A stretch of DNA of 20,815 bases from a virus. Below are positions 2,155-20,029 of the stretch, in pieces (position 1 is the stretch's first letter; each line of letters begins with the position of its first letter). The notes under the pieces were generated by a model. The model made no database searches. It was not told where the DNA came from and saw only the letters and a list, made by a program, of their open reading frames with translations. The DNA is taken from positions 1 to 20,815 of the IMG/VR virus record IMGVR_UViG_3300033153_009143; one strand, 5' to 3'. The position numbers and the translations under genes are program-made.

Positions 2155-3805
2155 CGCGGAAATAGCGCACGAGGCGTGGGAAGCGCTCAGGACGGCGACC
2201 TATGCTCAGGCTATTGAAATATATGACCTGTATTTGAATAAGTACGGGTGCAGGGCGGACACGGAGTTTTGCGCCGAATTGGGTAAAATAGATAGGTTTT
2301 TTCTCTTATTCCATACCTTGCGCCGGCCGGACGTTATACATCCGTGGTTATATAAGCGAGCAAGAGAAGTTCAGGCTAACCCCGATGGATATTTAGACAT
2401 ATGGGCCCGCGAATCGTATAAATCAACAATTATTACCTTCGCTGGTTCGATTCAGGAGATTATCAACGATCCCGAGATAACTATCGGTATTTTCAGTCAT
2501 ACCAGACCGATTGCCAAGGGCTTTTTGGATCAGATTAAGCAGGAGATTGAGTACAATCCGCTACTGCATCAATTTTACCCGGATATTTTTTGGAAAGACG
2601 CTAAAAAAGAGGCTCCTACATGGTCACTGGACATGGGGATAGTGGTCAAGCGCAAATTTAACCCCAAGGAAAAGACCGTTGAAGCGTATGGCCTGGTAGA
2701 CGGTATGCCGACCAGCAAGCACTTTAAGTTAATGATTTACAATGACGTGGTAACAGACAAGTCGGTTACTACCGCAGATATGATCTTAAAAACCACTCAG
2801 GCGTGGGAATTGAGCCGAAACCTGACGGCCGGCGGCCCGACCAGCGCACGCCGCACCTGGCACGAGGGAACCCGATATAACTACGCTGACACCTATCAGG
2901 TAATTATTAATCGTGGAGTATTCAAGCCGCGTGTATATCCCGCCACAGTAGACGGTACCCCGGACGGTGAGCCTGTTTTTCTCACCCAAGAGGCGTGGGC
3001 AGAAAAAAAGAAAGAATCAAGCGCTTATACAATCGCCTGTCAGCAGCTATGTAATCCCCTGGCCGGCGAAGAGCAGGAGTTTAGGCGTGACTGGATCAGG
3101 CGATGGGAAGTCAGGCCCAAGACCTTGAATGTGGCAATACTCGGAGATCCGGCTTCAAGCAAGAAAAAAGGGTCCAGCAATACCGCTATGGCCGTAATCG
3201 GCACAGACGCAAGCCGGAACAAGTATTTACTGGACGGCGCGTGTCACAAGATGAACCTGGCCGAACGGTGGAACACCTTGAAATATTTGAGAAAGAAGTG
3301 GATTAACGCTCCAGGCGTTCAGTCTGTAACGGTGGGATACGAAAAATACGGTATGCAGGCGGATATAGAGCATTTCAAGGAAATGATGAAGATCGAGAAA
3401 TATTCGTTTCCTATCGAAGAAGTTTCCTGGACACGAGACGATACTAACGCTAAAGACGACCGTATTCGCAGATTAATACCTGACCATCAAAACTGGCGGT
3501 TTTTCTACCCGTGGGAACCGTACAAAGACGAAGCGGGCAACCTGATTGAAACTACCGCTCAAATCAGAGACGCAATAGAGCGAGGACAGGGAAACCTAAT
3601 AGCCAGACCCATTAAACGGCGTAATCACGAGGGGAAAATTTATAATTTAGTTCAATGGTTTATAGATAACGAATACCTATTTTTTCCAGCGACAACGGCG
3701 AAGGATTTTTTGGACGCTATGAGCAGATTTTATGATTTGAGTATGAATCCGCCCCAGGTAGTCAAAGAAGAGGACCTGTTGCCGCCATATGTGGGAGATG
3801 ATTGA
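2126..3805 (+). CDS. terL: Terminase large subunit (packaging ATPase/nuclease)
   Basis: The 559-aa product is a full-length DNA-packaging motor protein. A deviant Walker A, ARESYKST, lies at residues 94-101 and a Walker B-like LMIYND at 202-207 in the N-terminal ATPase half. The C-terminal RuvC-like nuclease half shows the expected acidic residues: D341 in AILGDPASS, E406 in GYEKYGMQAD, and an aspartate in DFLDAMSRF about 25 residues from the end. It translocates DNA into the procapsid through the portal and cuts the concatemer. It overlaps the small subunit gene, implying coupled translation; the ribosome binding site at this start is weak. No frameshift or missing motif is seen. Confidence 0.93.
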   Translation: MSLPALKINSAEIAHEAWEALRTATYAQAIEIYDLYLNKYGCRADTEFCAELGKIDRFFLLFHTLRRPDVIHPWLYKRAREVQANPDGYLDIWARESYKSTIITFAGSIQEIINDPEITIGIFSHTRPIAKGFLDQIKQEIEYNPLLHQFYPDIFWKDAKKEAPTWSLDMGIVVKRKFNPKEKTVEAYGLVDGMPTSKHFKLMIYNDVVTDKSVTTADMILKTTQAWELSRNLTAGGPTSARRTWHEGTRYNYADTYQVIINRGVFKPRVYPATVDGTPDGEPVFLTQEAWAEKKKESSAYTIACQQLCNPLAGEEQEFRRDWIRRWEVRPKTLNVAILGDPASSKKKGSSNTAMAVIGTDASRNKYLLDGACHKMNLAERWNTLKYLRKKWINAPGVQSVTVGYEKYGMQADIEHFKEMMKIEKYSFPIEEVSWTRDDTNAKDDRIRRLIPDHQNWRFFYPWEPYKDEAGNLIETTAQIRDAIERGQGNLIARPIKRRNHEGKIYNLVQWFIDNEYLFFPATTAKDFLDAMSRFYDLSMNPPQVVKEEDLLPPYVGDD

Positions 3806-3807
3806 TT

Positions 3808-3951
3808 ATGGCGGAAAGAACGTTTAGTTGGCTAACGCTGGTAACCGAGGCTGACCCTGAGCATTACGAGATAGATGACGCCTATGAGTTCAGTAACGGA
3901 CGGACGTTTAAGAGCACGGACTCAGGTTCGAGTGGAGTATATGACCAATAA
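3808..3951 (+). CDS. Small phage protein, 47 aa
   Basis: An ATG two bases after the terminase stop opens a 47-codon frame beginning MAERTFSWLTLVTEADPEHY and ending SGVYDQ. GGGAG about 10 bases upstream is a good ribosome binding site. The protein is acidic and has no recognisable domain. Its tight packing between terL and the next gene, which starts inside its last codons, supports it as a real late-operon gene. Confidence 0.6.
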   Translation: MAERTFSWLTLVTEADPEHYEIDDAYEFSNGRTFKSTDSGSSGVYDQ

Positions 3952-4102
3952 TTACACTAATCACCCGGATTACGACCAGCTGCCCGAAGTAATTAAGACG
4001 GTATACAGCCACAAGGAATACGCATGGTTGTCTGATGATGAAAAAGCTCGGCTAATTGAAACCGAATGCAACCCTGAAGTACCCGAAGTAGAGGAAGATT
4101 AA
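3941..4102 (+). CDS. Small acidic phage protein, 53 aa
   Basis: This frame codes MTNNYTNHPDYDQLPEVI and ends in an acidic tail (PEVPEVEED). The frame is open upstream to 3875, but the ATG at 3941 has GTGGAG just before it and only an 11-base overlap with the preceding gene, so it is the preferred start. Its stop is immediately followed by the GTG of the next gene. No family is recognised. Confidence 0.65.
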   Translation: MTNNYTNHPDYDQLPEVIKTVYSHKEYAWLSDDEKARLIETECNPEVPEVEED

Positions 4103-4432
4103 GTGTTCAACGTCGAAGAATATCTTAATACTGTTCATGAATTAAGAGATTTATATGATGAGGTATGGGAAAAAACAAAAGATGGTATTTGGAGCGAATC
4201 CGCAGAAGACAGTGTGTGGGAAATAGAGCGACCTTTGTATGGTTTACTTCGTGACCTTAAAAGTTTTGGTGAAATGCTTTTTGAACTTAGGTGTTTGCGG
4301 GAAGCTGCTCCCGACGTAGCCAGAAAAATAATCGAATACAGGGATGTTCTCAACGATTATAAAGACGGGCTTGCAGAATTACAGCAAGCAATACGGGAGG
4401 CACAACATGATCAAGAAAAACAAATTGCTTAA
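4103..4432 (+). CDS. Hypothetical coiled-coil phage protein, 109 aa
   Basis: It starts with GTG directly after the previous stop, with GAGGAAG about 6 bases upstream. The product is rich in charged and aromatic residues, and its C-terminal half looks helical and coiled-coil-like (from about residue 65 on, ending LAELQQAIREAQHDQEK). It overlaps the next gene by 26 bases. It has no recognised domain; position between terminase and portal is typical for small accessory morphogenesis or unknown proteins. Confidence 0.65.
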   Translation: MFNVEEYLNTVHELRDLYDEVWEKTKDGIWSESAEDSVWEIERPLYGLLRDLKSFGEMLFELRCLREAAPDVARKIIEYRDVLNDYKDGLAELQQAIREAQHDQEKQIA

Positions 4433-4826
4433 TCCTTCGCTTTTTTTGGATGATTTAAATAAATCCAGAGATGAAATAAACAAAATTGACGATAACGACA
4501 AAGAAATAGGCGGAGAAATAAAAAAAGCCTATTTGAAAATAGTTGATGGAATTAACGGGTTAGCTATCCAGGCTTTCAAAAACGAATTTTTGGGGATGAA
4601 GTGGGATCTTCTGGCCGATGAATCAAGTTTTGATGAAGTAATTAAGGCGATGGAAAAAGAAAATTCAAGGCAAGGCAAACTTGGACGTGCTATCGGGGCA
4701 TGTGACGAATTGGAAGAAAAGATTGATTCGGCTAAACGCGAATTGCAGGAATTAAGGAACCCCGAAGCCGCTAAAGCGTATCAAAAAAGGCTTCAAGATA
4801 GAGCGACATTAAATGTCAGTCTTTAA
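4407..4826 (+). CDS. Hypothetical helical phage protein, 139 aa
   Basis: The frame extends upstream to 4344, but the ATG at 4407 has a perfect GGGAGG 7 bases before it and starts MIKKNKLLNPSLF, so it is the chosen start. The product is highly charged and predicted helical, with a likely coiled coil near the C terminus (DELEEKIDSAKRELQELRN, about residues 100-118). No enzyme motif is visible. It overlaps neighbours on both sides, consistent with a polycistronic late operon. Confidence 0.65.
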   Translation: MIKKNKLLNPSLFLDDLNKSRDEINKIDDNDKEIGGEIKKAYLKIVDGINGLAIQAFKNEFLGMKWDLLADESSFDEVIKAMEKENSRQGKLGRAIGACDELEEKIDSAKRELQELRNPEAAKAYQKRLQDRATLNVSL

Positions 4827-5196
4827 TCTCAAGCCAGACACGGGCTATGAAATTAAGCCGGTAGAAGGTCACGAATTAGCGGACATAGCGCTGGCTAAAC
4901 GCTGCGCGGACGCTCTAAACGAGCATTATCCCGGTCATTTATGGGCTGTACATCTCAATGATGAAGAGATGGGCGGCATATTAATAATTCGCAATTTAGC
5001 GGTATCGTTTCAATACGGATATGTGTTGCATTTATCAACAATTCATGCTGACCCAAACTTGAAATGCGTAATGCGGGCAGGTGGTGAAATATTAGAACGA
5101 GCCAGTATGATTCGTGGCCGATGGGACGGTGAGGACGCAAAGTATATCGAGGGAGTAAAGCCTCAACATCAGCCTTTTGGCGGGATAATTATATGA
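4813..5196 (+). CDS. Hypothetical phage protein, 127 aa
   Basis: The product starts MSVFNLKPDTGYEIKPVEGH and looks like a compact alpha/beta protein, ending in KPQHQPFGGIII. It overlaps the preceding gene by 14 bases. Hypothetical proteins of this size are common between terminase and portal in podovirus-like genomes, but I do not recognise a named family. No signal peptide or membrane segment is seen. A 115-base structured non-coding gap follows before the portal gene. Confidence 0.65.
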   Translation: MSVFNLKPDTGYEIKPVEGHELADIALAKRCADALNEHYPGHLWAVHLNDEEMGGILIIRNLAVSFQYGYVLHLSTIHADPNLKCVMRAGGEILERASMIRGRWDGEDAKYIEGVKPQHQPFGGIII

Positions 5197-5216
5197 TTAA
5201 GTCCGAAAATTTAATT

Positions 5217-5293
5217 CTCCCCTGAAAACAGGGGGGTCGCAAGTTTAAGGCGGCTGGTGGGAGCCCCGTTCTTCTATTAGCCGTCTTGCTTGC
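5217..5293 (+). promoter_or_regulatory. Structured leader upstream of the portal gene
   Basis: Two structures fill the gap before the portal start. The first is an 8-bp hairpin with an AAAA loop (5217-5224/5229-5236, core CCCCTG/CAGGGG). The second is a longer one with outer stem GCAAG 5239-5243/CTTGC 5289-5293 and inner stem GGCGGCT 5249-5255/AGCCGTC 5279-5285. An A-run and a weak AAGAG ribosome binding site follow. Neither ends in a T-run, so attenuation by termination is not evident. Translational control of portal level or RNase processing is possible. Confidence 0.45.
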
Positions 5294-5311
5294 AAAAAAA
5301 ATAAGAGACAT

Positions 5312-7342
5312 ATGGCAGACGAATCGATCAGCAAAGACATTTGGTTGGAGAGAGCGGCCAACGCTTATTCTCAGTCAACTTCGTATGTTGACAATAATTA
5401 TAGAAAAAAATGGAACGAGGCCCTTCGTTTTTTTCAGAGTAAGCACCAGGCCGGGTCAAAATACCGCAAAGACGCTTATAAATATCGTTCTAAGGTTTTT
5501 CGTCCTAAATCCCGCGCAGCCACACGTAACAACGAAGCGGCAGCGGTAGCGGCTTTTTTCGCCAATCAAGATGTAGTTGACGTCTCTCCTCAGAATCCAA
5601 ACGATGATTCACAACAGGCTTCAGCTGACGTAATGAAGGAATTATTGAATTATCGTCTGCAGAAAACTATTCCATGGTTTTTAACCTGTATTGGCGGCTA
5701 CCAGGACGGTCAGGTTGTTGGCGTGATGGTTTCCGAGAACTATTGGGATTACAAAGAACGCACGGAAAAGCAGTATGAACCGGTTATAAATGAAGAAACC
5801 GGTGAACCGTTATTTGATGAAGAAACCGGCGACCCGATTATGAACGAAATAAAGGTAACGGTTCCGGTTAAAGACGAGCCCTGTATTGATTTGTTTCCCG
5901 TGGAAAACCTGAGAATCCATCCTTCAGCCAGTTGGGTAGACCCTATTGGCACGTCTCCGTATGTTATTCGTCTAATTCCCATGTATGTGGGAGAAGTTAA
6001 GGCTCGGATGAAAGCGCAAGATTCTAAAACCGGAGAGCCAAAATGGAAACAATTAGACGATGGTGAGATAAGATCCGCTCAAAAAAACATATATGACAGC
6101 ACCCGCCAGACACGAGAGGAAGATAGAGAGGACAGCGGGGACCAGGATCACACAAAAGAATTAGGCGATTACGACATAGTGTGGGTACTCAAGAATTTCA
6201 TACGGCATGAGGGCGAAACATACGTCTATTATACGCTGGGTACGCAATACCGTTTAACCGACCCTAAACCCCTCAAGGAAGTCGTTTTTCACGGCGAAAT
6301 ACCCATTACCATGGGATATGTGGTTGTAGAAACGCATAAACTTTTTCCTTCTGGCTTGATTGAATTAGGCGCTAACCTTCAAAAAGAAATTAACGAAATC
6401 GCTAATACCCGGCTTGATAACGTTAAGCTGGTGATGAACAAAAGATGGAAGGTAAAAAGGGGTTCTCAGGTTGATTTGCGTGCTCTGGTGCGTAATGTGG
6501 CTGGAGGAGTAACTCTGGTTGAGGAAATGGGAGATGTTGAGGGAGAAGAATTTCACGATGTTACCGGGTCCAGTTATCAGGAGCAAGATCGTCTGAATGT
6601 TGATTTTGATGAAACCGTGGGGTCTTTTTCCGCATCCACCATCCAAACTAACCGCAGGCTGAACGAAACCGTGGGCGGAATGCAGATGCTTAAAGGCGGC
6701 ATTAACAGCCTGGTCGAGTATTCCCTGCGGGTGTTTGCCGAAACATGGGTGGAGCCAACTCTCCGGCAATTAGTCAAACTGGAACAATATTACGAAACAG
6801 ACGAGACGATTTTAGCAATTGCGGCAGAAAAAGCGCAATTAGTTAAAAAATACGGCATTAACAAAGTAACAGATGATTTATTAAACCAGGAACTTACCTT
6901 GAATGTGAACGTTGGCATGGGAGCCACGGACCCGATTATGCGGGTACAAAACTTCATGTTGGGTATCAGAACCATCGTAGAGGTTATAAAAACTGACCAG
7001 AGCGGCGTGTTAGATATTCAGGAAATTGCTAAAGAAGTGTTTGGCCGCATTGGGTATAAGGACGGCGCTCGATTCTTTATTGAGGCCATGGGCGATGATC
7101 CTGAAAAAATGCAGATGGCTCAGGTTATCCAGCAGTTACAGCGGTTAGTGCAGGCGTTAAAGGCAGAGCTTGAAAGTAATATCGGCGAACAGAAAACAAA
7201 GGTATTGATTGAAAGAATGAAGCAGTCAGGCGCAAGCCAGCGGAAGGAAGCTGAGCTGAAAACAAAACTCGTAGAAAAACAGTTAGATTTATTGAATCCG
7301 GTAGTGGGAGAAAAACCAGGTGTTAGACCTCAAAACGCTTAG
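5312..7342 (+). CDS. Portal protein (podovirus/P22-like)
   Basis: At 676 aa this matches the size of P22-type portals, the dodecameric ring through which DNA enters and leaves the capsid and to which the tail docks. It lies in the expected place between terminase and scaffold. Residues 1-145 resemble the N-terminal region of such portals (FRPKSRAATRNNEAAAVAA around residues 63-81). Residues 340-480 hold the likely stem/wing segment (LIELGANLQKEINEIANTRL and a GSFSAS...RRLNETVGGM stretch). The C terminus is a long helical, charged barrel-like tail. Residues 148-180 carry an acidic near-duplicated loop (NEETGEP / DEETGDP). The assignment is by family resemblance and synteny. Confidence 0.88.
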   Translation: MADESISKDIWLERAANAYSQSTSYVDNNYRKKWNEALRFFQSKHQAGSKYRKDAYKYRSKVFRPKSRAATRNNEAAAVAAFFANQDVVDVSPQNPNDDSQQASADVMKELLNYRLQKTIPWFLTCIGGYQDGQVVGVMVSENYWDYKERTEKQYEPVINEETGEPLFDEETGDPIMNEIKVTVPVKDEPCIDLFPVENLRIHPSASWVDPIGTSPYVIRLIPMYVGEVKARMKAQDSKTGEPKWKQLDDGEIRSAQKNIYDSTRQTREEDREDSGDQDHTKELGDYDIVWVLKNFIRHEGETYVYYTLGTQYRLTDPKPLKEVVFHGEIPITMGYVVVETHKLFPSGLIELGANLQKEINEIANTRLDNVKLVMNKRWKVKRGSQVDLRALVRNVAGGVTLVEEMGDVEGEEFHDVTGSSYQEQDRLNVDFDETVGSFSASTIQTNRRLNETVGGMQMLKGGINSLVEYSLRVFAETWVEPTLRQLVKLEQYYETDETILAIAAEKAQLVKKYGINKVTDDLLNQELTLNVNVGMGATDPIMRVQNFMLGIRTIVEVIKTDQSGVLDIQEIAKEVFGRIGYKDGARFFIEAMGDDPEKMQMAQVIQQLQRLVQALKAELESNIGEQKTKVLIERMKQSGASQRKEAELKTKLVEKQLDLLNPVVGEKPGVRPQNA

Positions 7343-8758: not shown

Positions 8759-8863
8759 TTGGCAGGTCAAGTATGGGTCGTAAACTCGCTCGGCGGATAT
8801 ATGTATAGCGATAATTTATCCAAAGAGCTGAGAATGGCCGTTCAGCCCTTGGTAAAGTTCCGT
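8759..8863 (+). CDS. Major capsid protein, exon 1 (codons 1-35)
   Basis: A TTG start with AGGAGG 7 bases upstream opens a frame reading MAGQVWVVNSLGGYMYSD and on to VQPLVKFR, where it leaves the expected protein and reaches a stop (TGA 8876-8878) inside the intron. These residues match the usual N terminus of a large group of phage coat proteins in which KFR is followed by QFCD. The missing QFCD is found 751 bases downstream at 9615. The last exon base is T8863, paired with the intron guide sequence as group I introns require. Unspliced mRNA would yield only a peptide of about 39 aa. Confidence 0.85.
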
Positions 8864-9614
8864 GGTGTAACTTATTGAAATCATGGCGGAATTAAAACCA
8901 CACTATATGCTGGAACGCCTTAAAGTTTTCATAACTAACTATGTAAAATGATGAAAAATGTAACAATAGGTAATCAGCAGGAAATCTTGGATATCGCTTG
9001 GTTGGCCGGGATGTTAAACGGTGACGGCTGTTTTTCTTTACAGGTAAGGAAGAGAAAAGAAAGAAAAAATCAACATGCGGCGCAAGTTGATTTGAGCCTC
9101 GCTTTAACCCAGACCGATGGAGTTATTATAGAAAAAGCGAAAATCGTCATGGAGAAAATAACGGAAGCAACTCCCCATATCGTTGAATACGCCCCCAGTG
9201 GAGCGGGAAAAAACACCAAGCTGAATCTCAGGTATTCAAAAATGGCGCATATTAAAAAGTTATTGGAAGCGATTGAGCCCTTTTTGGTTGGCAACAAGGC
9301 TGCCAGGGCCAGGCTTATTATGGCATACATAAACAGAAGGCTTTCAATGACTGATGTTGCCACAAGAAACAAGAATCCTCTTCATGATAAAACCAGTTGG
9401 CAGCTTATTAAAAAATATTACAGCAGCCAAAATAAAGATTTTCCAAAGGATATTCAAGCGATCCCCAGAGGCTAATACGTGGGGCGCTGTTTTTTTAATA
9501 GACAGTGATGATAGAGTCCGAACTTTGGTAAAAGCCAGAGAGGAAAAGTCGTGAGACATGTTCCCGCCACATAAACAGTGGTCAGTAGGTAATAAACCGA
9601 AAGTAACAGAATTG
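8864..9614 (+). ncRNA. Group I intron interrupting the major capsid gene
   Basis: The ribozyme core can be drawn by eye. P1: exon AGTTCCGT (8856-8863) with guide GCGGAATT (8886-8893), eight pairs ending in the canonical U.G at the splice site. P3: CCAC 8898-8901/GTGG 9479-9482. P4: TGCTG 8908-8912/CAGCA 8975-8979. P5: GCCT 8917-8920/AGGT 8968-8971. P7: GGCT 9470-9473/AGTC 9515-9518. P8: CTGT 9487-9490/ACAG 9502-9505. P9: CTTTGGT 9523-9529/GCCAGAG 9534-9540 with an AAAA loop. Two further 3' hairpins are CCAC 9567-9570/GTGG 9578-9581 and GGT 9588-9590/ACC 9596-9598. The intron ends in G9614 as expected for omega-G. Splicing joins KFR to QFCD in frame. P10 pairing is weak, and P2 and P6 were not resolved. 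Confidence 0.88.
8948..9475 (+). CDS. LAGLIDADG homing endonuclease in the intron
   Basis: The 175-aa product carries one LAGLIDADG-type motif, WLAGMLNGDG at residues 18-27, with the catalytic acidic residue D26. A later IEPFLVGNKAARARLIMAYINRR segment matches the usual second half of single-motif enzymes, which act as homodimers. Such enzymes cut intronless alleles and drive intron homing; some also help splicing as maturases. The start lies in the P5 loop and the stop TAA (9473-9475) is inside the P7/R element, so the gene occupies the P6 region and overlaps the ribozyme core at both ends. No strong ribosome binding site precedes the ATG pair at 8948/8951; a TTG at 8987 after AGGA is an alternative. 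The motif and frame look intact. Confidence 0.88.
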   Translation: MMKNVTIGNQQEILDIAWLAGMLNGDGCFSLQVRKRKERKNQHAAQVDLSLALTQTDGVIIEKAKIVMEKITEATPHIVEYAPSGAGKNTKLNLRYSKMAHIKKLLEAIEPFLVGNKAARARLIMAYINRRLSMTDVATRNKNPLHDKTSWQLIKKYYSSQNKDFPKDIQAIPRG

Positions 9615-10448
9615 CAGTTTTGTGACGTGAAGGATGCCACCCAGCAAGGATTGTCTAAGGGTGACACCTTTCATTGGAACGTATACCAAGACGTAGCAAC
9701 ACAGGGGGGTACTCTTGTTGAGACCGACACGATGCCCGAAACCCAATTCACGATTACTCAGGGAACATTAAGCATTACGGAATACGGTCAATCTGTGCCT
9801 TATACCGGCAAGCTGGACAGTCTCTCTGAACATCCCGTGAAGGAAATTATTAACAAGGTCTTAAAAAACGATGCGAAGAAAGCGTTTGATATTGCAGCTC
9901 ATGCTCAATTCAATAATACTCCGCTTCGTGCGTATCCGACTAGCGGTACAGCTACGGATGCGGTGTCCATTGCCACCACGAGTACGGTTGGCGGTACTTC
10001 TAGCGTGGCCCTTAATACCGGTCATGTCAAGGCTATCGTAGATGCCATGAAAGAGCGAAATATTCCGCCTTATAAGGCTGACGATTATTACGCGATTGCC
10101 TGGCCCACGACTCTTAGAACCTTTAAAAACAGCCTTGAAAGTATCCAAAAGTACACTCCTGAAGGTTTTAGCATGATCATGAACGGTGAAGTTGGCCGAT
10201 ATGAAAACACTCGGTTTGTCGAGCAGATGAATATTGATAAAGCCGACACCGCTTATACCGATTGGTGTTTCTTCTTCGGGGAAGATACGGTGGCCGAAGC
10301 AATTGCGGTCCCAGAAGAAATGCGGGGTAAAATTCCAGGCGATTACGGACGTTCCAAGGGTGTAGCCTGGTTTTATCTCGGTGGATTTGGCCTTGTTCAT
10401 ACCGCTCACGCGCAAGCCCGCGTCGTGAAGTGGGAAAGCGCAGCTTAA
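9615..10448 (+). CDS. Major capsid protein, exon 2 (codons 36-312)
   Basis: The second exon begins QFCDVKDATQQGLSKGDTFHW and continues for 277 codons, giving a 312-aa coat protein when joined to exon 1. Landmarks include VATQGGTLVETDTMPET, SVPYTGKLDSLSEHPVKEII, VKAIVDAMKERNIPPYKADD, and a C-terminal GEDTVAEAIAVPEEMRGKIP with FYLGGFGLVHTAHA. This is a common coat-protein family of podovirus-like phages (N4 gp56/P22-coat-like group, HK97 fold expected). The ATG at 9558 (MFPPHKQW) is not the real start, because its first 19 codons are intron. The gene follows the scaffold, as expected, and a decoration-like gene comes next. Confidence 0.88.
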   Translation, partial: QFCDVKDATQQGLSKGDTFHWNVYQDVATQGGTLVETDTMPETQFTITQGTLSITEYGQSVPYTGKLDSLSEHPVKEIINKVLKNDAKKAFDIAAHAQFNNTPLRAYPTSGTATDAVSIATTSTVGGTSSVALNTGHVKAIVDAMKERNIPPYKADDYYAIAWPTTLRTFKNSLESIQKYTPEGFSMIMNGEVGRYENTRFVEQMNIDKADTAYTDWCFFFGEDTVAEAIAVPEEMRGKIPGDYGRSKGVAWFYLGGFGLVHTAHAQARVVKWESAA

Positions 10449-11041: not shown

Positions 11042-12109
11042 ATGATTCGTAAACTAAAGATTGCGATGATAAGCGGTCATGCCTGTGTTCGAGTGCAGAA
11101 GATGGCGCTTCCTTTAATTTGGAAGGGTCATGATGTGCATTTGATTGCTAAGGCAATGCCTTCCGGTTATCAGCACTATCAAACGCTTTCGTTCGCAGAG
11201 GGCGTAAATCACTACATAGAGGCCATTAAGCAATATGCCCGGTTTGTGGACGTATTCCACTGTCACAACGAGCCTTCATGGTTTGTAACGGCCGTTAAAG
11301 AGCATTGTGACGTACCTGTGGTGCTGGACGTACACGATTCATATTTAGCCAGAGTGACGGAGGAACAGCTACAGGCAGAGCGGGAAAAAGGCGCGGACCT
11401 GCACCGGCATTATTCGGAAGAACGTAATAATTTCCAGATGGCTGATGCCCTGGTTTTTCCGAGCAAGCCCTTTGGCGACCTGATTATGAAAGAGTATGCC
11501 CTAAATCAGCCAAGTCTTGTACTGCCTTCTTATGTGTCTCGCGCGGATTATCAGTATCGGGGCGGGCCGTGGCTGGGCGGTTTAGCGTATGAAGGCAAGG
11601 TCAATCTCACCAAAGAGATAAAAACGGGTGGCAAGAACTATGGTTTTAAATACTGTGATTACGAGGAATTAGCAAGACAGGCCCTTCGGGCAGGCATGGA
11701 CTTGCATTTATACGCTACCAGAAAAGACGACAGTTTTATGAAAGCGTTTAAGGAAACGGCGTTTATTCACGAAGGCCGGCTGTTTCATAAACTGCTTGAA
11801 TCTTTAACCCGCCACGATTGGGGTTTGGTGGGGAACGTCTTTTATACTCCCGAATGGGACGTAGCCTTTCCGAACAAGCTATTTGAATATATTGCGGCTT
11901 CCGTACCCGTGGTTGCGATAAACGCAAAATACTGCAGTGAGTTTATTCAGGAACATGGCGTGGGAATTGTGGTGGATTCAATAGAAGAATTGGCAGGCAG
12001 ATGGGGCGAACATCGGCAATGTAGAGAAAATCTAGTTAAAGTACGTCAGAAATTCACTATGGAAAAACACATTGGAAAACTGGAAGAACTGTACGAGGGG
12101 TTATTGTGA
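11042..12109 (+). CDS. GT-B glycosyltransferase (GT4-like)
   Basis: The 355-aa protein shows a GT-B layout. The N-terminal Rossmann half opens KIAMISGHACVRVQKMALPL (residues 6-25), with VFHCHNEPSW (71-80) and PVVLDVHDSY (92-101). The C-terminal donor-binding half holds FPNKLFEYIAASVPVV at 276-290, the usual nucleotide-sugar motif of family GT4-like enzymes. It would transfer a sugar from a nucleotide-activated donor; donor and acceptor cannot be told. No membrane segment is seen, so it is likely cytoplasmic. AGAAAGAAGAA before the ATG gives a moderate ribosome binding site. It is the first gene of the cassette and is followed after 3 bases by the deacetylase. Confidence 0.85.
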   Translation: MIRKLKIAMISGHACVRVQKMALPLIWKGHDVHLIAKAMPSGYQHYQTLSFAEGVNHYIEAIKQYARFVDVFHCHNEPSWFVTAVKEHCDVPVVLDVHDSYLARVTEEQLQAEREKGADLHRHYSEERNNFQMADALVFPSKPFGDLIMKEYALNQPSLVLPSYVSRADYQYRGGPWLGGLAYEGKVNLTKEIKTGGKNYGFKYCDYEELARQALRAGMDLHLYATRKDDSFMKAFKETAFIHEGRLFHKLLESLTRHDWGLVGNVFYTPEWDVAFPNKLFEYIAASVPVVAINAKYCSEFIQEHGVGIVVDSIEELAGRWGEHRQCRENLVKVRQKFTMEKHIGKLEELYEGLL

Positions 12110-12112
12110 GAG

Positions 12113-12742
12113 ATGCTTCTAAATCCGAACAAGACATTAATACTTGCGCCGCATCCCGATGACGCTGAATTTGGTTGCGGGGGAACTATCGCCAAGCTTT
12201 TAAATCAAGGGCGAGATGTAAGTGTCATGGTTTTTTCCAAGGTAAATCCAGCCATCAATCCGCCTGAAACCCTGACGGTTGAGCTTAACGAGTCCATGAG
12301 ACGGTTCGGAGTTATACGTACGGCTGTTAAGGTTTACGATTTTCCAATGCGCCGCCTGAATTATGTACGTCAGGATATCTTACAGGAGTTAATGGATGTA
12401 AAAGATGAAATCGACCCGGACCTTGTTTTTATTCCTTCTCCTAACGATGTGCATATGGACCATCTTACAATTTCTCAAGAAGGTTTGCGGGCTTTTAAGG
12501 GGGTGACTACGCTTGGCTATGAGCTTCCCTGGAACAATTTTAATTTTAAAACACAGGTTTTCGTTGAATTAAACGCGGCTGATGTTGAATGCAAGATAAG
12601 CGCTATTGAGGCTTATGAATCTCAAGCTCATAAAAAGTATGCCAGCCCTAAGTTTATTAAGGCGTTGGCCGTAACGCGGGGCGTACAAATCGGTTTTGAT
12701 TATGCGGAGGCTTTTGAGGGTATTCGATGCGTCTTGAAATGA
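12113..12742 (+). CDS. LmbE/PIG-L family N-acetyl sugar deacetylase
   Basis: The 209-aa product has the hallmarks of the zinc-dependent LmbE/PIG-L family: PHPDDAEFGCGG at residues 13-24 (metal ligands H14 and D17, catalytic D16) and NDVHMDHLT at 111-119 with the third ligand H114 or H117. Family members remove an acetyl group from N-acetylglucosamine-type sugars, for example in GPI anchor, mycothiol and bacillithiol synthesis. The key residues are all present and the length is normal. The gene overlaps the LpxD-like acyltransferase by 16 bases, suggesting a deacetylate-then-reacylate pair. The substrate is unknown. Confidence 0.88.
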   Translation: MLLNPNKTLILAPHPDDAEFGCGGTIAKLLNQGRDVSVMVFSKVNPAINPPETLTVELNESMRRFGVIRTAVKVYDFPMRRLNYVRQDILQELMDVKDEIDPDLVFIPSPNDVHMDHLTISQEGLRAFKGVTTLGYELPWNNFNFKTQVFVELNAADVECKISAIEAYESQAHKKYASPKFIKALAVTRGVQIGFDYAEAFEGIRCVLK

Positions 12743-13353
12743 TGGGAGATAAACAGCGGTTTGAGTTCGCCGAGTCTACGCAATCTTTTTGTTGTCGGCC
12801 GTTACGCGGACAAAATTGTTCTATCGCCAATGATGCGATTATCGGGCCTCACACGACCATTGGCGATAATGTGGTCATCAAGGCGGGTGTAATTATAGGC
12901 GATTACTGCAACATTAAATCGGGTTCTGTGATTGGGGACAAGGGGTTCAGTTTTGGCTTTAACGAAGACGGCATGGCTCATGAAATCGTTCATACTGGCG
13001 GTGTCATTATTGGAAATCATGTGGAGATAGGAGCCCTTTGTACCGTATGCCGGGGAACCGTGACTGATACGATTATCGAAAATTACGTTAAAACAGACGA
13101 TCACGTTCATATAGCTCACAATTGTCATATTAAGAAAGGGGTTATTATCACGGCGGGCGCAATTTTAGGAGGAAGCGTAACCATAGAGCCTAAAAGCTGG
13201 CTTGGATTAAACTGTACCGTTCAAAACAAGGTGAAACTGGCGTGGGGAACGCTGGTTGGCACGGCGGCGAATGTTATCAAAAACACTGTCATTAGAGCCG
13301 TTATGACTGGCAATCCGGCAAAAATAATGCGGGTTAGAAGGTATGAAACATGA
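12727..13353 (+). CDS. LpxD-like left-handed beta-helix N-acyltransferase
   Basis: The 208-aa protein is built of hexapeptide repeats (IIGPHTTIGDNVVIKAGVII and similar, from about residue 32 to 180). It contains IGDKGFSFGFNEDG at 69-82 and HVHIAHN at 126-132, which closely parallel the catalytic region of LpxD; H131 corresponds to the expected catalytic histidine. LpxD transfers an acyl group to the free amine of a glucosamine, and the enzyme lacks LpxD's N-terminal uridine-binding domain, so its acceptor may differ. GAGGG about 7 bases upstream supports the start at 12727; the ATG at 12742 is an alternative. Its overlap with the deacetylase suggests consecutive steps. It could be a sugar N- or O-acetyltransferase of the same fold. 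Confidence 0.8.
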   Translation: MRLEMMGDKQRFEFAESTQSFCCRPLRGQNCSIANDAIIGPHTTIGDNVVIKAGVIIGDYCNIKSGSVIGDKGFSFGFNEDGMAHEIVHTGGVIIGNHVEIGALCTVCRGTVTDTIIENYVKTDDHVHIAHNCHIKKGVIITAGAILGGSVTIEPKSWLGLNCTVQNKVKLAWGTLVGTAANVIKNTVIRAVMTGNPAKIMRVRRYET

Positions 13354-14363
13354 TTGATGTCTTAATGCTGACCGGGCACGATTGGGCGAATACCGGATGG
13401 AGATTTTCGCAGTGCCTTCAAAGTCTTGGCCTTGAGGTTCTGTTTTTCAAGGGCATGATGCACCCCTTTTGCTACCCAGAGCAAGGCATAGTGCATCCGG
13501 CTTTGTATGAAATGGTTAAGGAACATGGAGCCCATACTCACCTGGCTTTTGAAGTGCCAAAGTTAAAATTTTATGCTGACAACGCTAAGGTGATTCATTA
13601 TCGAGACTCAAGTTTTATTGATACTACCGCTGATTTGAGCAAAAAGCGGGTGGTCGTACAACATGGCGGCCGAACGTACAGGGTTGGACACGAGACTATT
13701 AATGAAATTTTTAATCCCATTGTAGACGCCACCCTGATTCAGATGCCAGACCTGTTAGGTCTGGGAGCGAAAAACGAACAACTTGTTTACTATCCCGTTC
13801 AAACCGAAAGGCTGTTGCCGCACTACAAAAGACAATATGACAGGTTAACTATAGGTCATTTTCCCACAGGGCAAATTGAAAAAGGTTCTTCTTTGATTGT
13901 TTCCGTTCTGGAAGAGCTTAATGCGGGCAAATTTAAAGATCGTTTTTACTTTATGGGAACAACGGATTTCACTAAAGCGCGTGGGAAAATGCTGTTATGG
14001 CAGGATCACCTTCAGCGCACGGCGGCTTGCGATATTATTATTGAAACGTGCTCCATGACGGCTCAGGGGCGGCCTTACGGAGAATGGGGAAATACGGCCA
14101 TTGAAGCGGCGGCGTTAGGAAAAATCGTTGTTACTAACTCATTAAGCACAGAACTGTATAAAACGGAGTACGGCCCCGACTGCGCCTTGCATATTGCGAA
14201 CAACGGGGAAGAAATGAAGGATGTTCTTTCTCGTTTATTGTCCATGACCGACAGGGAACTTCTGGCAGAAAAAGAAAAAAGCAGAGCGTGGGTGGAAAAG
14301 TATCATAGCATGGAGGCAACCGCCGCAAGGCTTTGGGATAAAATTTATAAGTATTTTTTTTAA
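13350..14363 (+). CDS. Second GT-B glycosyltransferase
   Basis: The 337-aa protein looks like a GT-B fold enzyme. It opens MIDVLMLTGHDWANTGWRFS, has KRVVVQHGGRTYR around residues 102-114 and GHFPTGQIEKGS around 169-180. A C-terminal donor-site segment GEWGNTAIEAAALGKIVVTN lies around 244-263, equivalent to the E-x7-E region of GT4-like enzymes. The N-terminal half differs from the first glycosyltransferase, so the two probably act on different acceptors. It overlaps the acyltransferase by 4 bases (ATGA), typical of coupled translation. Specificity cannot be read from sequence. Confidence 0.75.
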   Translation: MIDVLMLTGHDWANTGWRFSQCLQSLGLEVLFFKGMMHPFCYPEQGIVHPALYEMVKEHGAHTHLAFEVPKLKFYADNAKVIHYRDSSFIDTTADLSKKRVVVQHGGRTYRVGHETINEIFNPIVDATLIQMPDLLGLGAKNEQLVYYPVQTERLLPHYKRQYDRLTIGHFPTGQIEKGSSLIVSVLEELNAGKFKDRFYFMGTTDFTKARGKMLLWQDHLQRTAACDIIIETCSMTAQGRPYGEWGNTAIEAAALGKIVVTNSLSTELYKTEYGPDCALHIANNGEEMKDVLSRLLSMTDRELLAEKEKSRAWVEKYHSMEATAARLWDKIYKYFF

Positions 14364-14374
14364 AGGAGTTATTT

Positions 14375-14572
14375 ATGAGCGATAAACCAGAGAATTTTAA
14401 GGGGATTAAGGACAATTACGGAGTTACTAAAAAAGACATTAGCCGGGGATTTACTCCTGGTATGGCCGAGGGAGAGACGCGCGGCGTTGACGATATTCCT
14501 ATGCTGTATGACAGCATGGCGGGAGAAGAATTAGGCGGCTTTCTGGGAAGGGGAAAGGGATGGGAGCGGTAA
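14375..14572 (+). CDS. Small phage protein, 65 aa
   Basis: AAAGGAG 6 bases before the ATG and a frame beginning MSDKPENFKGIKDNYGV support this as a real gene. The middle (SRGFTPGMAEGETRGVDDIP) is polar and probably flexible. No domain is recognised. It sits between the glycosyltransferase and the KPY-motif proteins and overlaps the next gene, so it belongs to the same unit; a virion accessory role is possible. Confidence 0.6.
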   Translation: MSDKPENFKGIKDNYGVTKKDISRGFTPGMAEGETRGVDDIPMLYDSMAGEELGGFLGRGKGWER

Positions 14573-14757
14573 CAATTATGCTTGATAAAAGTAAACCCTA
14601 TACCGTGGTTTCCGGTAAACCAGGCGTGGGCTATGAACAAAACGGCATGTTGTTCAAGCCGAACGGGGAGTTTAGCGAATTAACCTATGAAGATATGTCT
14701 CAAGGGGAAATTAACCAAAGGAAAATTGAGATGTTGTGGGGAAAAAATAATGAATGA
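14560..14757 (+). CDS. Small KPY-motif phage protein, 65 aa
   Basis: The frame contains LDKSKPYTVVSGKPGVGYEQ followed by NGMLFKPNGEF, a short motif repeated almost unchanged at the N terminus of the next protein. The ATG at 14560 has AAGGGGAAAGGG before it; the ATG at 14578, which would give MLDKSKPY directly, has GGGAG 12 bases before and is a possible alternative. LDKxKPY with a following YEQxGxxF occurs in other phage small proteins to my recollection, without known function. It overlaps its neighbours on both sides. Confidence 0.6.
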   Translation: MGAVTIMLDKSKPYTVVSGKPGVGYEQNGMLFKPNGEFSELTYEDMSQGEINQRKIEMLWGKNNE

Positions 14758-15352
14758 ACCGATAGTGCTTGATAAAAATAAGCCGTATCAAGAGGTGTTT
14801 GGTACGGCAGGGATTCGATACGAGCAGGACGGCAAGGCTTTTGACCCCGTGGGAAATCTCGTAACAAAAGTAAAGGATGACGGTTTTTTGTGTTCCGAGT
14901 CTGGTTGTCGATATAAGGCGAAAACGGAAGAGGAACTGAAAGCCCATATTATTCAGGAACATGGTGGTCCTCTGGAAGTCCAAATGGTGAAAGACCGCCT
15001 ATACGACCTTTTTGTAGCGACAAATTCGGGCAGCCTTGAATTCCTGCATCCGAACGATAACGGCGGATTCGTTTATAACGATGGGACTCTGACCTTTACG
15101 ATAATTGTGCCGAAATTTGACGCAGTTACGGTTTCCGGTCAGTCTGACAGGTCTGACAGGCCTGACAGGCCCGACAATGTTGATAGTGATTCCAAACTGC
15201 CCGTAGACGTTGACAGGATAGACGAAAAGGGAATCAAGAAATATCTTGACATAATGGCGGTAGATTATGACGGCAGGCTCGGGGAGAAAAAACTGCGGGT
15301 GTTGTTAAAAAAAGCCCTGAAAGAAAAGCCGAAAGAGGATGATACTTTTTAA
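14750..15352 (+). CDS. KPY-motif, C2H2 zinc-finger and HeH/SAP-like phage protein
   Basis: The frame is open from 14687, but the ATG at 14750, overlapping the previous stop by 8 bases, gives 200 aa starting MNEPIVLDKNKPYQEVFG. Residues 6-35 repeat the KPY motif of the upstream protein. A C2H2-type finger follows, C48-x4-C53-x12-H66-x4-H71. Residues 132-143 are a short (S/P)DR repeat encoded by 9-base tandem DNA repeats (15142-15177). The C terminus (about 159-190, KGIKKYLDIMAVDYDG then EKKLRVLLKKAL) resembles small HeH/SAP-type helical domains of phage proteins. The three modules suggest a nucleic-acid or protein-binding role, but the function is unknown. Confidence 0.75.
   Translation: MNEPIVLDKNKPYQEVFGTAGIRYEQDGKAFDPVGNLVTKVKDDGFLCSESGCRYKAKTEEELKAHIIQEHGGPLEVQMVKDRLYDLFVATNSGSLEFLHPNDNGGFVYNDGTLTFTIIVPKFDAVTVSGQSDRSDRPDRPDNVDSDSKLPVDVDRIDEKGIKKYLDIMAVDYDGRLGEKKLRVLLKKALKEKPKEDDTF
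15142..15177 (+). repeat. Four tandem 9-bp repeats
   Basis: Units GTCTGACAG, GTCTGACAG, GCCTGACAG and GCCCGACAA follow head to tail in frame and encode the linker repeat (S/P)DR of the zinc-finger protein. Array length could vary by slippage, changing the linker without shifting the frame. Confidence 0.7.
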
Positions 15353-16313
15353 CGATTTTTGCGAACCCCCGCGCAATCAACGGGTTTTGTTTTTCAATCC
15401 GAGTTTGGCCTGGGAATATAACGTTTCTGTTACTGATTGGATTCGTGATGAGCTTAATTGCGAGACGTTCTCTACGCCGGCAACCTCGCTTGATAACGTT
15501 AAGGATTTAAATAAATACAACCTGGACTGCGCGATAGATCTTAGCCGGGCGTGTTTCAGAAAACCTGTTGACCCCCCGGTTTGTCCGTTTACCGGCAAAC
15601 AAACCGTGCCCGTAAATATATCGGGGCCTTGGGGCTATTATAATATGTGTCAAGAAAGTAAGACTCTCGTGCTGGCCGACAGGCAGTTTTTGGATTTTGG
15701 TATTTATGATGATGATTATGGCGACCGGATAAGTACCAAGATTAATCCTCGTTATGCTTTGTTAGCCGGCGACATATTTCGGGACTGCAAATTGCCCGCG
15801 AATGGGAGTTTGTTGGACATAGGTTTTGCGAACACTGCCATTATGGTGGCTTTTGCCCGTAAGGGCTGGAAAGTTACAGGTATTGACCTCGCCTGTTCTC
15901 CTGTTAGACGCAAGCAAATTAAGGCGGTTGGCGGAAAATTCATTAAGAGCGATATTTCCAAAAATGAAATTAAGGGTACTTACGATATCGTTTGGGTTAG
16001 TCACGTTATTGAACATCTCACGAATCCCGCAGAAACCATTGAGCGCATATGCGGAGCGGTGGCGCCGGGCGGTTATTTGTTTGTGTCTGCGCCTGATTCA
16101 GAACCATGGTTCGATAAAGGCGATCAAACGGGCATTAGCGTTCATTTGCATCCAGAACAGCATGTTTGGATAGGCCCGTCTTCGCACGTAGCGAATATAT
16201 GCAGGAATAATGGATTTACGATACTCAAAGATGAAAAATACGGAGATCCTTTCCCGGGTGCGTTTGAGTTTGTGACTATTAACGAATGGCGGTTATTGGC
16301 GCAAAAAGTATGA
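15339..16313 (+). CDS. SAM-dependent methyltransferase (class I fold)
   Basis: The 324-aa product has a class I methyltransferase core in its second half: motif I LLDIGFANTA at 158-167, acidic loop GIDLA near D183, DIVWVSHVIEHL at 216-227 and PGGYLFVSAPD at 243-253. Motif I lacks the usual second and third glycines, so the cofactor loop is divergent. The first 130 residues (with RVLFFNPSLAWEY near 15-27 and several cysteines) are not part of the core and may recognise the acceptor. It overlaps the preceding gene by 14 bases and the GT9 gene at ATGA. In a glycan cassette it may methylate a sugar; DNA or protein targets cannot be excluded. Confidence 0.8.
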   Translation: MILFNDFCEPPRNQRVLFFNPSLAWEYNVSVTDWIRDELNCETFSTPATSLDNVKDLNKYNLDCAIDLSRACFRKPVDPPVCPFTGKQTVPVNISGPWGYYNMCQESKTLVLADRQFLDFGIYDDDYGDRISTKINPRYALLAGDIFRDCKLPANGSLLDIGFANTAIMVAFARKGWKVTGIDLACSPVRRKQIKAVGGKFIKSDISKNEIKGTYDIVWVSHVIEHLTNPAETIERICGAVAPGGYLFVSAPDSEPWFDKGDQTGISVHLHPEQHVWIGPSSHVANICRNNGFTILKDEKYGDPFPGAFEFVTINEWRLLAQKV

Positions 16314-17371
16314 ATACTCCTAAAGAAATCAGATACCTTGACCTATTAAGGCGTTGGCACGATCAGGACCTGGGTCCGAAGCGTCCGGGTAAATCGGTTT
16401 GTGTGGTGAGATATGGCGGGATAGGCGACTACATTCAAACTAGCTCCGTGTTACCCCGCTTAAAGGAACAGGGCTATCACGTTACCCTGAACGTAGAGTC
16501 GCTCGGATATGAATTAATGAAGCACGATCCATATATAGACGCTTTTTTTATTCAGGAAAAAGACCAGATTTTAAGGGAAGAACTCGGGCCGTATTGGGAA
16601 AAATTATGCGGGTGTTTTAGGAAATTCATTAATTTTAGTGAATCGGTTGAGGGTTCTCTGCTATCGGTTGAGGGGCGCATTCATCAATACTGGCCCAAAA
16701 AGGCTCGTCATGAATACATGAATCACAACTACCTTGAAATGATGCACCTGATAGCAGATGTGCCGCTAGTATATTCGCCGAGATTTTATTCAAGTCGCCG
16801 GGAAAAAAAGTGGGCGGGTCGAAAGAAAAAAAGCATGGGGGGCCGGTTTATTTTATGGGTACTGGCCGGGTCTTCGGGTCATAAGACATGGCCCTATCTT
16901 GACCAGATGATAGCCCGAATTATGCTCACTATGCCAGACGTAAAAATAGTGTTGGTTGGAGATGGTCTTGCACAAATGCTGGAAATTGGATGGGAGAAAG
17001 AACCAAGGGTTATCAAGAGGGCAGGCGTTTGGACGGTTCGCCAGACTATCGCACTGGCTGAAGTGGCAGACCTCGTTGTTGGCCCTGAAACCGGCATTAT
17101 GAACGCTGTCAGCACGTTGAGCGTTCCCAAGGTTGTTATGTTGTCTCATTCAACGGTAGAAAACCTAACCAGAGATTGGAAGAATTGTATATCGCTGGTT
17201 CCATTGGGGTGTCCTTGTTATCCGTGTCACATGCTTCATCATAGCTTTGAATACTGTCATAGAGACGAAAAAACAGGGACGGCCCTTTGTCAATCCAAGA
17301 TTTCTGTAGAACAAATGACCGCCGCTATTAATTTACAATTAGGGCGGGCGGTATATAAGGGGGCCGCGTAA
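16310..17371 (+). CDS. GT9 (heptosyltransferase-like) glycosyltransferase
   Basis: With the ATG that overlaps the methyltransferase stop (ATGA), the product is 353 aa. It shows the GT9 pattern: VRYGGIGDYIQTSSVLPRLK at 33-52, a donor-domain ILWVLAGSSGHKTWPYLDQM at 181-200, and VVGPETGIMNAVSTLSVPKV at 256-275, the ADP-heptose-binding signature region. A C-terminal cysteine cluster (C301, C303, C306, C316, C327) is also seen in other GT9 proteins and may bind metal. Known GT9 enzymes add heptose to the LPS core or modify proteins such as autotransporters. An in-frame ATG at 16286 is an alternative start. Its stop overlaps the first base of the next gene. Confidence 0.85.
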   Translation: MNTPKEIRYLDLLRRWHDQDLGPKRPGKSVCVVRYGGIGDYIQTSSVLPRLKEQGYHVTLNVESLGYELMKHDPYIDAFFIQEKDQILREELGPYWEKLCGCFRKFINFSESVEGSLLSVEGRIHQYWPKKARHEYMNHNYLEMMHLIADVPLVYSPRFYSSRREKKWAGRKKKSMGGRFILWVLAGSSGHKTWPYLDQMIARIMLTMPDVKIVLVGDGLAQMLEIGWEKEPRVIKRAGVWTVRQTIALAEVADLVVGPETGIMNAVSTLSVPKVVMLSHSTVENLTRDWKNCISLVPLGCPCYPCHMLHHSFEYCHRDEKTGTALCQSKISVEQMTAAINLQLGRAVYKGAA

Positions 17372-18244: not shown

Positions 18245-20029
18245 ATGAATCTTCCTCTTTTATCCGAAACAGGGGCAGAAGGCCGTTATCCCGTCAATTA
18301 TTATTTAGAGATTGAGACGGAAGACGGGCAGCCCGCCCTTGTGGGTACGCCCGGGACAAAGGTTTTTGATGTTGCCTGGGCTGAACTGGTCACCAACGGA
18401 ACTTTTGATAGCAATATTACGGGCTGGAATAACGATGGGGTTGCCCCTTACGAAACGCTTGAATGGCAGAGCGGAAAACTGCACGCCGTGAATACCACTA
18501 ACACTGGTTTTGTAAATTCAGACGATAACATTTCGGTTACTGCTGGAAGGCTTTATAAAATTACATTCGACCTTGACATCTCTTCCGGCCAGGGGCCGGG
18601 CTGTATTATGGCAAGGGCTATAAGGGGCGACAGACTATGCACCATGTTTGAGATTGGTGATGGTACAAATGGCTCTCATGTCTTTTACTGGACTCCGACA
18701 ACCACAGAGAATGTGCTTTTTGAGGCTGTTGTAAATCAGAACTCAGATTTCACCCTTGACAACGTCTCCATTCAAGAAATAGTTACCGGTCAACCTGTTC
18801 GTAATCTTAATGTTATGGGTGATTATTTATATGTCGTCTGCGGGAACACCTTTTATCAGGTGGATTCAAGTGGAGCGGCTACCAGTAAAGGAACGATTAA
18901 TTCTACCACGGGTTATGTCTGGATAGAAAATAACGGCCTTCAGGTGATGGTTGTAGATAGCGTTACCAACGAAGGATATATCTATACCCTGTCCAATGAC
19001 ACCTTTGCGCAAATTACTGACGCTGATTTTCCAGGTGCGGGAAGTCTGACTTATCAGGACGGATATTTCATAATAACACAACCGGACACGGATTATGTTT
19101 TTCTTTCAGATATTAATGACGGTACAAGTTGGGACGCTTTAAAATATGCCGCAGCCGAAGGAGACCCCGGCAACCTGGTAGCCGTGCTGTCAGACCATCG
19201 GGAACTGTTTGTGTTTGGGGAAAACGCTTCTGAGGTCTGGTGGAACTCCGGGGCTTCATATCCTTTTGACCGCAGGGAAGGCGTTTATCTTGAAGTGGGA
19301 TTGGGGGCGGCGGCTTCACTCGCGAAAGTAGATAACTCGGTTTTCTGGCTTGACGACAAGGGCATGGTGCGCCGTTTACACGGTTATGACCCGGAATTTG
19401 TTTCAACCCGGCGTCTTGAAAAAATCATAGCCGGATATTCCACGGTAAGTGATGCCATAGGGTTTGGATACGTTGATCAAGGTCATTCGTTTTACCAGCT
19501 TACCTTCCCCACAGCCAACGCTACATGGTGTTATGACACGGCGACAAAACGCTGGCACGAGCGAACAAGCTATCCGGGAAGTAACCGGCATAGAGCGAAT
19601 TGTTACGCTTATTTTAATCGAAAGCATATTATCGGGGATTATGAGAACGGAAAACTTTACGAATTAGACCACGACACTTACACCGACAACAGCGAAACGG
19701 TTCAGCGTGTTCATGTTTTCCCTAAAGTCAGGGCGGATAGATTTCATCGTTTAAGAATAAACTTCAAGTCAGGCACAGGGCTTGTTACCGGTCAGGGAAG
19801 CGACCCCCAGGCCATGCTCGATTGGAGTGATGACGATTGCCGGACGTGGAGTAACGAGCATTGGGCCGATATAGGGGAAATAGGTGAATACACCCGCCGT
19901 TCCGTCTGGTATCAGATGGGGCGGTCTGAAAGTGGATTTCGTAATTACAGGGTAACGGTAAGCGATCCTGTGGAACTGGTAATCAGGTCTGCCGACTTAA
20001 AGGCAACCCGCAACGGACGTAAAATATGA
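18245..20029 (+). CDS. gp10-like packaged-DNA stabilisation protein with inserted carbohydrate-binding-like domain
   Basis: The 594-aa protein matches the gp10-type tail hub family: GTPGTKVF (34-41) and PVRNLNVMGDYLYVVCGNTF (184-203) near the N terminus, then TDADFPGAGSLTYQDGYFII, YAAAEGDPGNLVAVLSDHRE, HRANCYAYFNRKHIIGDYEN and GQGSDPQAMLDWSDD in order. It would form part of the short tail below gp4. Between GTPGTKVF and PVRNL lies an extra segment of about 137 residues (44-180), beginning ELVTNGTFDSNITGWN and ending FTLDNVSIQEI, which reads as a CBM4/9-type jelly-roll. Homologues as I know them have only a few residues there. The stop overlaps the next gene at ATGA. Confidence 0.82.
   Translation: MNLPLLSETGAEGRYPVNYYLEIETEDGQPALVGTPGTKVFDVAWAELVTNGTFDSNITGWNNDGVAPYETLEWQSGKLHAVNTTNTGFVNSDDNISVTAGRLYKITFDLDISSGQGPGCIMARAIRGDRLCTMFEIGDGTNGSHVFYWTPTTTENVLFEAVVNQNSDFTLDNVSIQEIVTGQPVRNLNVMGDYLYVVCGNTFYQVDSSGAATSKGTINSTTGYVWIENNGLQVMVVDSVTNEGYIYTLSNDTFAQITDADFPGAGSLTYQDGYFIITQPDTDYVFLSDINDGTSWDALKYAAAEGDPGNLVAVLSDHRELFVFGENASEVWWNSGASYPFDRREGVYLEVGLGAAASLAKVDNSVFWLDDKGMVRRLHGYDPEFVSTRRLEKIIAGYSTVSDAIGFGYVDQGHSFYQLTFPTANATWCYDTATKRWHERTSYPGSNRHRANCYAYFNRKHIIGDYENGKLYELDHDTYTDNSETVQRVHVFPKVRADRFHRLRINFKSGTGLVTGQGSDPQAMLDWSDDDCRTWSNEHWADIGEIGEYTRRSVWYQMGRSESGFRNYRVTVSDPVELVIRSADLKATRNGRKI

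Follow-up and report, generated by a model that had tools for sequence, protein, structure and literature searches.

The major capsid protein (MCP) gene in the window, which is the whole 20,815-nucleotide stretch of viral DNA that was analyzed, is split by a 751-nt insert (8864-9614) with in-frame stops inside. We consider it very probable that this insert is a mobile group I intron, for which splicing, cleavage, homing and translational control are proposed below. The insert also carries a LAGLIDADG endonuclease, an addition to what the first-pass annotation of this DNA had reported. Because each particle takes hundreds of coat protein copies, the intron places virion output directly under the efficiency of the ribozyme, and virus particle production in these phages should depend on a self-excising RNA.

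The interrupted coat gene and the intron core

The first-pass annotation described the coat gene as a 35-codon and a 277-codon piece that are rejoined at KFR|QFCD with no loss of a residue. Its coordinates proved exact to the base (Table 1). The last base of exon 1 is U8863 (codon 35 is CGT), exon 2 resumes at CAG with C9615 as its first base, and both exons stay in frame up to the MCP stop codon at 10446-10448. The joined exons give a 312-residue coat protein, and when this protein was aligned with uninterrupted relatives it matched them from end to end, in agreement with the predicted junction. MCPs of this phage group are found in at least 599 IMG/VR stretches, and the KFRQ(F)xD motif is nearly invariant among MCP relatives. 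Residues 35 and 36 are contiguous in 79 of the 80 IMG/VR sequences most closely related to exon 2; the exception is L003, where an insert of 706 nt lies at this boundary. A translated insertion in coat homologues, which the first-pass annotation had named as evidence against an intron, was seen at 35|36 in none of about 80 MCP relatives aligned. The tblastn matches of exon 2 are Vibrio and Escherichia phage proteins, some of them annotated as major capsid protein. Compared with four relatives, pN/pS is 0.16-0.24 for exon 1 and 0.16-0.25 for exon 2, rough figures with synonymous sites near saturation, which indicate purifying selection on both.

The same structural module as the MCP contains genes that match the Pfam families SU10_portal (1.6e-36) and SU10_adaptor (1.1e-7). 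By these portal and adaptor genes the phage is classed as SU10-like (Kuravirus-like) and short-tailed-phage-like. Between the MCP and adaptor genes (11042-17371) lie glycosyltransferase, PIG-L deacetylase, hexapeptide transferase and methyltransferase-like genes, which are unusual inside a structural module. At 20026-20814 a frame with repeated LDDIADGTYGKVL(S/T)xxISAGHIVLSE units resembles a repetitive tail-fibre protein and is cut by the contig end.

Comparison with related introns bears out the 8-bp P1 with its terminal U.G at 8863, the omega-G at 9614 and the P3, P4, P5, P7, P8 and P9 pairings that were originally proposed. Over nine introns P1 has 69 of 72 standard pairs, with the terminal U.G in all nine, and at one pair L003 and L099 have U-A where the window has C-G. 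P4 is fully paired (54/54) and P7 has 49 of 54 standard pairs; the sixth P7 pair counted in the relatives is A.G in the window, and L100, a sister intron, has the same P7 features. For P3, 52 of 54 pairs are standard, against a mean of 40.3 with shuffled partners, and none of 2000 shuffles reaches 52. A shorter P3 of 4 bp (CCAC/GUGG) was rejected on comparison with L100, which gave CCACAC/GUGGGG. An unconstrained fold of the window core with the ORF loop excised forms P1, P4, P5, P5a, P8 and P9; P3 is a pseudoknot partner and lies beyond what the folding program can display. The mismatch in P3 and the A.G at the sixth P7 pair could point to a ribozyme that is weak or decaying, although the P7 features recur in L100.

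Table 1. Positions of the coat gene exons, the predicted intron and its helices in the window.
Feature	Position	Strand	Description
Exon 1 of MCP gene	8759..8863	+	35 codons, TTG start; ends KFR with 3' U; gapless alignment to residues 1-35 of relatives
Predicted group I intron	8864..9614	+	751 nt, terminal omega-G9614; homologous introns at same boundary; covariance model match
P1	8856..8893	+	Exon AGUUCCGU (8856-8863) with internal guide GCGGAAUU (8886-8893); 8 bp, terminal U8863.G8886
P3, 5' strand CCACAC	8898..8903	+	Pairs with GUGGGG 9479-9484; one A.G mismatch
P4	8908..8979	+	UGCUGG 8908-8913 / UCAGCA 8974-8979; encloses P5 and P5a
P5	8917-8920/8968-8971	+	By eye and unconstrained fold
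P5a	8926-8932/8951-8957	+	UUUUCAU/AUGAAAA; by eye and unconstrained fold
LAGLIDADG homing endonuclease ORF	8948..9475	+	175 aa, one motif LAGMLNGDG; bulk in loop L6
P6, 5' strand GGAAAUC	8980..8986	+	Pairs with GAUCCCC 9460-9466; by eye, against other type A introns (GGGAAGUC/GACCCC)
P6, 3' strand GAUCCCC	9460..9466	+	By eye
P7, 5' strand G[A]GGCU	9468..9473	+	Bulged A9469; pairs with AGUCC 9515-9519
P3, 3' strand GUGGGG	9479..9484	+	Comparison over nine introns
P8 hairpin	9485..9507	+	CGCUGU (9485-9490) / ACAGUG (9502-9507); covaries in relatives; model alignment; fold
P7, 3' strand AGUCC	9515..9519	+	Nine-intron comparison, covariance model
P9 hairpin	9523..9540	+	CUUUGG (9523-9528) / CCAGAG (9535-9540); 100% paired over nine relatives; model; fold
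Exon 2 of MCP gene	9615..10448	+	277 codons and stop; PHROG 1357 major head protein, 5.2e-14
Ligated-exon junction (predicted)			AAGTTCCGT|CAGTTTTGTGAC; protein KFR|QFCD

The identification as group I is carried by the homologous introns at the same boundary and by the covarying core. In the P7-P8-P9 region of nine relatives, 95.6% of the cells are paired and in 35 cells both partners have changed, where shuffles give 10.8; when the partners are slid by 1-3 columns the pairing falls to 22-43%. A covariance model of this 3' core (R1) was built from the nine relatives, leaving out both the window and L100, and its sole match in the window is 9459-9545 (39.8 bits, E 1.5e-9). Another core alignment (A3), which included L100, was discarded with the L100 P7 off by one column. 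The Rfam group I model, which had been suggested as a check, gave no match in the window at the default gathering threshold, and a permissive scan found RF00028 at 22.9 bits (cutoff 50, E 0.002) with the 5' half misaligned; the misalignment comes from the endonuclease ORF, which divides the core. L083, a sister intron that has no ORF, exceeds the Rfam group I cutoff with 70.8 bits. The Rfam gathering score is a practical threshold and not a defining trait of group I introns. Since both standard annotation and default Rfam miss the window intron, such coat genes would be called truncated.

Related introns and their spread

Besides the window, pattern scans and homology brought up 16 records with an interruption at 35|36, which makes 17 in all; two intron types occur among them. 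The interrupted genes were located by scanning for MCP exon-2 starts without a preceding arginine codon, and the 17 include near copies (L083/L086/L090/L093 and L084/L088/L091). In every 35|36 case examined base by base a U precedes the insert and a G ends it. Nine distinct introns are of the window's type (A). Type B (L092, L094 and L098) is 233-248 nt long, GC-rich and without an ORF, and has the identical 35|36 boundary and guide; on its visible P3/P7 pairings and a weak model match of L094 (E 1.7e-5) it is also assigned to group I. The two types have the last ~12 nt (AAGTAACAGATTG-like) in common, a likeness that may reflect either convergence or recombination. The CAACGACTA pattern also matches the contigs L103, L105 and L106, in which no intron core is present.

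On a tree of 87 distinct MCPs the site-35 introns are scattered and require about 9-11 changes, and the well-supported branches alone force at least five changes for type A; the tree was made by a quick method with one support measure, and site 35 is the only site that its labels describe. The MCP of the window groups with that of L002, in which 35|36 is empty, whereas for the intron and the endonuclease of the window the nearest are those of L100, whose MCP lies elsewhere on the tree. L002, to which the window is most closely related by MCP, carries at 13|14 a type A intron with its own LAGLIDADG ORF (L002:3120-3940). These conflicts point to repeated horizontal spread, and the distribution fits homing between related genes together with loss. 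The introns remain uncommon, with the model detecting them in 2 of the 80 best relatives.

Exon alignments and the flanking U/G place further MCP introns at 13|14 (L002, and L098 near 13), ~82 and ~95 (L097), 93|94 (L092 and the Aromatoleum anaerobium contig L117), 257|258 (L118) and ~288 (L092). The L092 gene (626-3237) has three introns, after residues 35, 93 and ~288; Rfam group I gives the second 87.8 and the third 92.3 bits, and the second has an opposite-strand ORF that looks HNH-like by eye. L097 (9157-12147) also has three MCP introns, at 35, ~82 and ~95, with small exons between them. The Rfam scores are 90.3 bits for L118, 62.3 for L117, and 51.7 and 41.8 for L097. The L117 MCP gene (3666-5660), with its intron at EYG|NSV, lies in an Aromatoleum anaerobium genome contig (NZ_WTVG02000039) and may offer a cultured entry point. 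In L102 (4374-5870) the gene of a distant major head protein (PHROG 267) is interrupted, at a different point close to its N-terminus, by a type A intron with a LAGLIDADG ORF, and in L104 (4457-4540) an ORF-less type A core lies beside a glycosyltransferase-like frame.

Judged from these alignments, the MCP gene of this phage group is a hot spot for introns, with about seven sites. We think it likely that group I introns use it as a general landing platform: there are about seven sites in ~312 codons, two ribozyme types at one boundary and up to three introns per gene, and the type is also present in L102. The supply of coat protein would then depend on ribozymes that are lost and then gained anew, and these might act as a switch, set by timing or by the environment, for the expression of late genes. 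The many sites and intron types form a natural series for asking why introns are tolerated in a structural gene with such high expression, and how homing driven by endonucleases travels among uncultured phages and a contig from a bacterial genome (Aromatoleum).

The endonuclease, the proposed mechanism and its alternatives

The endonuclease ORF matches Pfam LAGLIDADG_1 at 5.6e-6 (27.6 bits, cutoff 23.1). Direct searches of IMG/VR and phage records gave no close relative of the window endonuclease; L100, which was found via its MCP, is the closest among those compared (48% identity). A profile built from the enzymes of the window, L100 and L003 matches I-CreI and, for most of its length, I-CvuI, likewise single-motif endonucleases of ~160-175 aa, and the window enzyme is of this single-motif, presumably homodimeric type. 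I-CvuI and I-CreI come from algal chloroplast rRNA introns, whereas the target of the window enzyme would be a phage coat gene. Its start codon is next to and in the P5a 3' strand and its stop codon is at the P7 5' strand. This placement of start and stop could, by analogy with T4 introns, keep the window endonuclease silent once the RNA is folded or spliced.

A mechanism that fits these features is that exons and intron are transcribed together and the RNA folds into the P3-P9 ribozyme core. An exogenous guanosine would attack after U8863 of P1, exon 1 would then attack after omega-G9614, and translation of the joined mRNA would give the coat protein of 312 residues. Unspliced RNA would be the template for the endonuclease, whose start codon would be enclosed in P5a, a possible timing control. 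The enzyme would cut intronless MCP genes at the conserved KFR|QF, and repair would copy the intron in.

One can also ask whether the insert is a decayed group I intron that has lost the ability to splice, with the coat protein made by internal initiation at ATG 9558 (MFPPHKQWSVGNKPKVTEL-QFCD...) or the genome being defective. An ATG-initiated ORF of 296 codons does exist at 9558-10448, and both the P3 mismatch and the Rfam score under the cutoff would suit decay. Yet exon 1 is without a stop or gap and is held, as its pN/pS of 0.16-0.24 indicates, under purifying selection, the 19 intron-encoded residues ahead of QFCD are absent from the MCPs of relatives, and the core helices and an uninterrupted endonuclease ORF have been retained; we therefore regard decay as very improbable. 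An assembly artefact or chimera, in which a foreign piece was placed in the MCP gene, has in its favor that the window is a single uncultured contig. It is very improbable when the insert begins and ends exactly at the boundary where many independent contigs have homologous, clearly different introns, and when its internal guide matches this gene's own exon.

Translational bypassing or an intein, with no RNA splicing, would equally restore the protein without loss of a residue. The intein is excluded by a TGA in frame soon after 8863. The bypass gap of T4 gene 60 is ~50 nt, and 751 nt with a ribozyme core and an endonuclease is unlike known bypass gaps, so that this explanation is hardly credible. 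A mobile group I intron remains the reading that we prefer.

Comparison with known systems

High intron loads are known from other phages. Huge gut phages have a mean of 18.5 introns per genome (PMC12363816), and a Twort gene has three introns according to the account of Landthaler and Shub (1999) given in PMC11878797. In Bastillevirinae the polymerase and terminase genes have up to three group I introns per gene (PMC11878797); that paper never uses the word capsid, whereas in L092 and L097 the three introns are in one MCP gene.

The first-pass annotation regarded coat-gene introns as rare. Rare they are, but an intron of this kind was already shown in mycobacteriophage LittleE (Cluster J), where an insertion of ~820 bp in the major capsid gene, most likely a group I intron, was proven to splice by RT-PCR and N-terminal sequencing (PMC3706429), and in the present phage group the coat gene is a repeated target. 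As in the window, a U precedes the LittleE intron, a G ends it and an endonuclease gene lies inside. Unlike the window, LittleE is an unrelated siphovirus, its endonuclease is on the opposite strand, and one phage with one site was described. Lactococcal phage Tuc2009, as cited in PMC3706429, has an intron in a capsid subunit gene; it is a different phage type. A search of the open-access literature found no report on MCP introns in this phage group. Introns in capsid genes are already known from these systems, and what looks new here is the crowding of introns in one coat gene.
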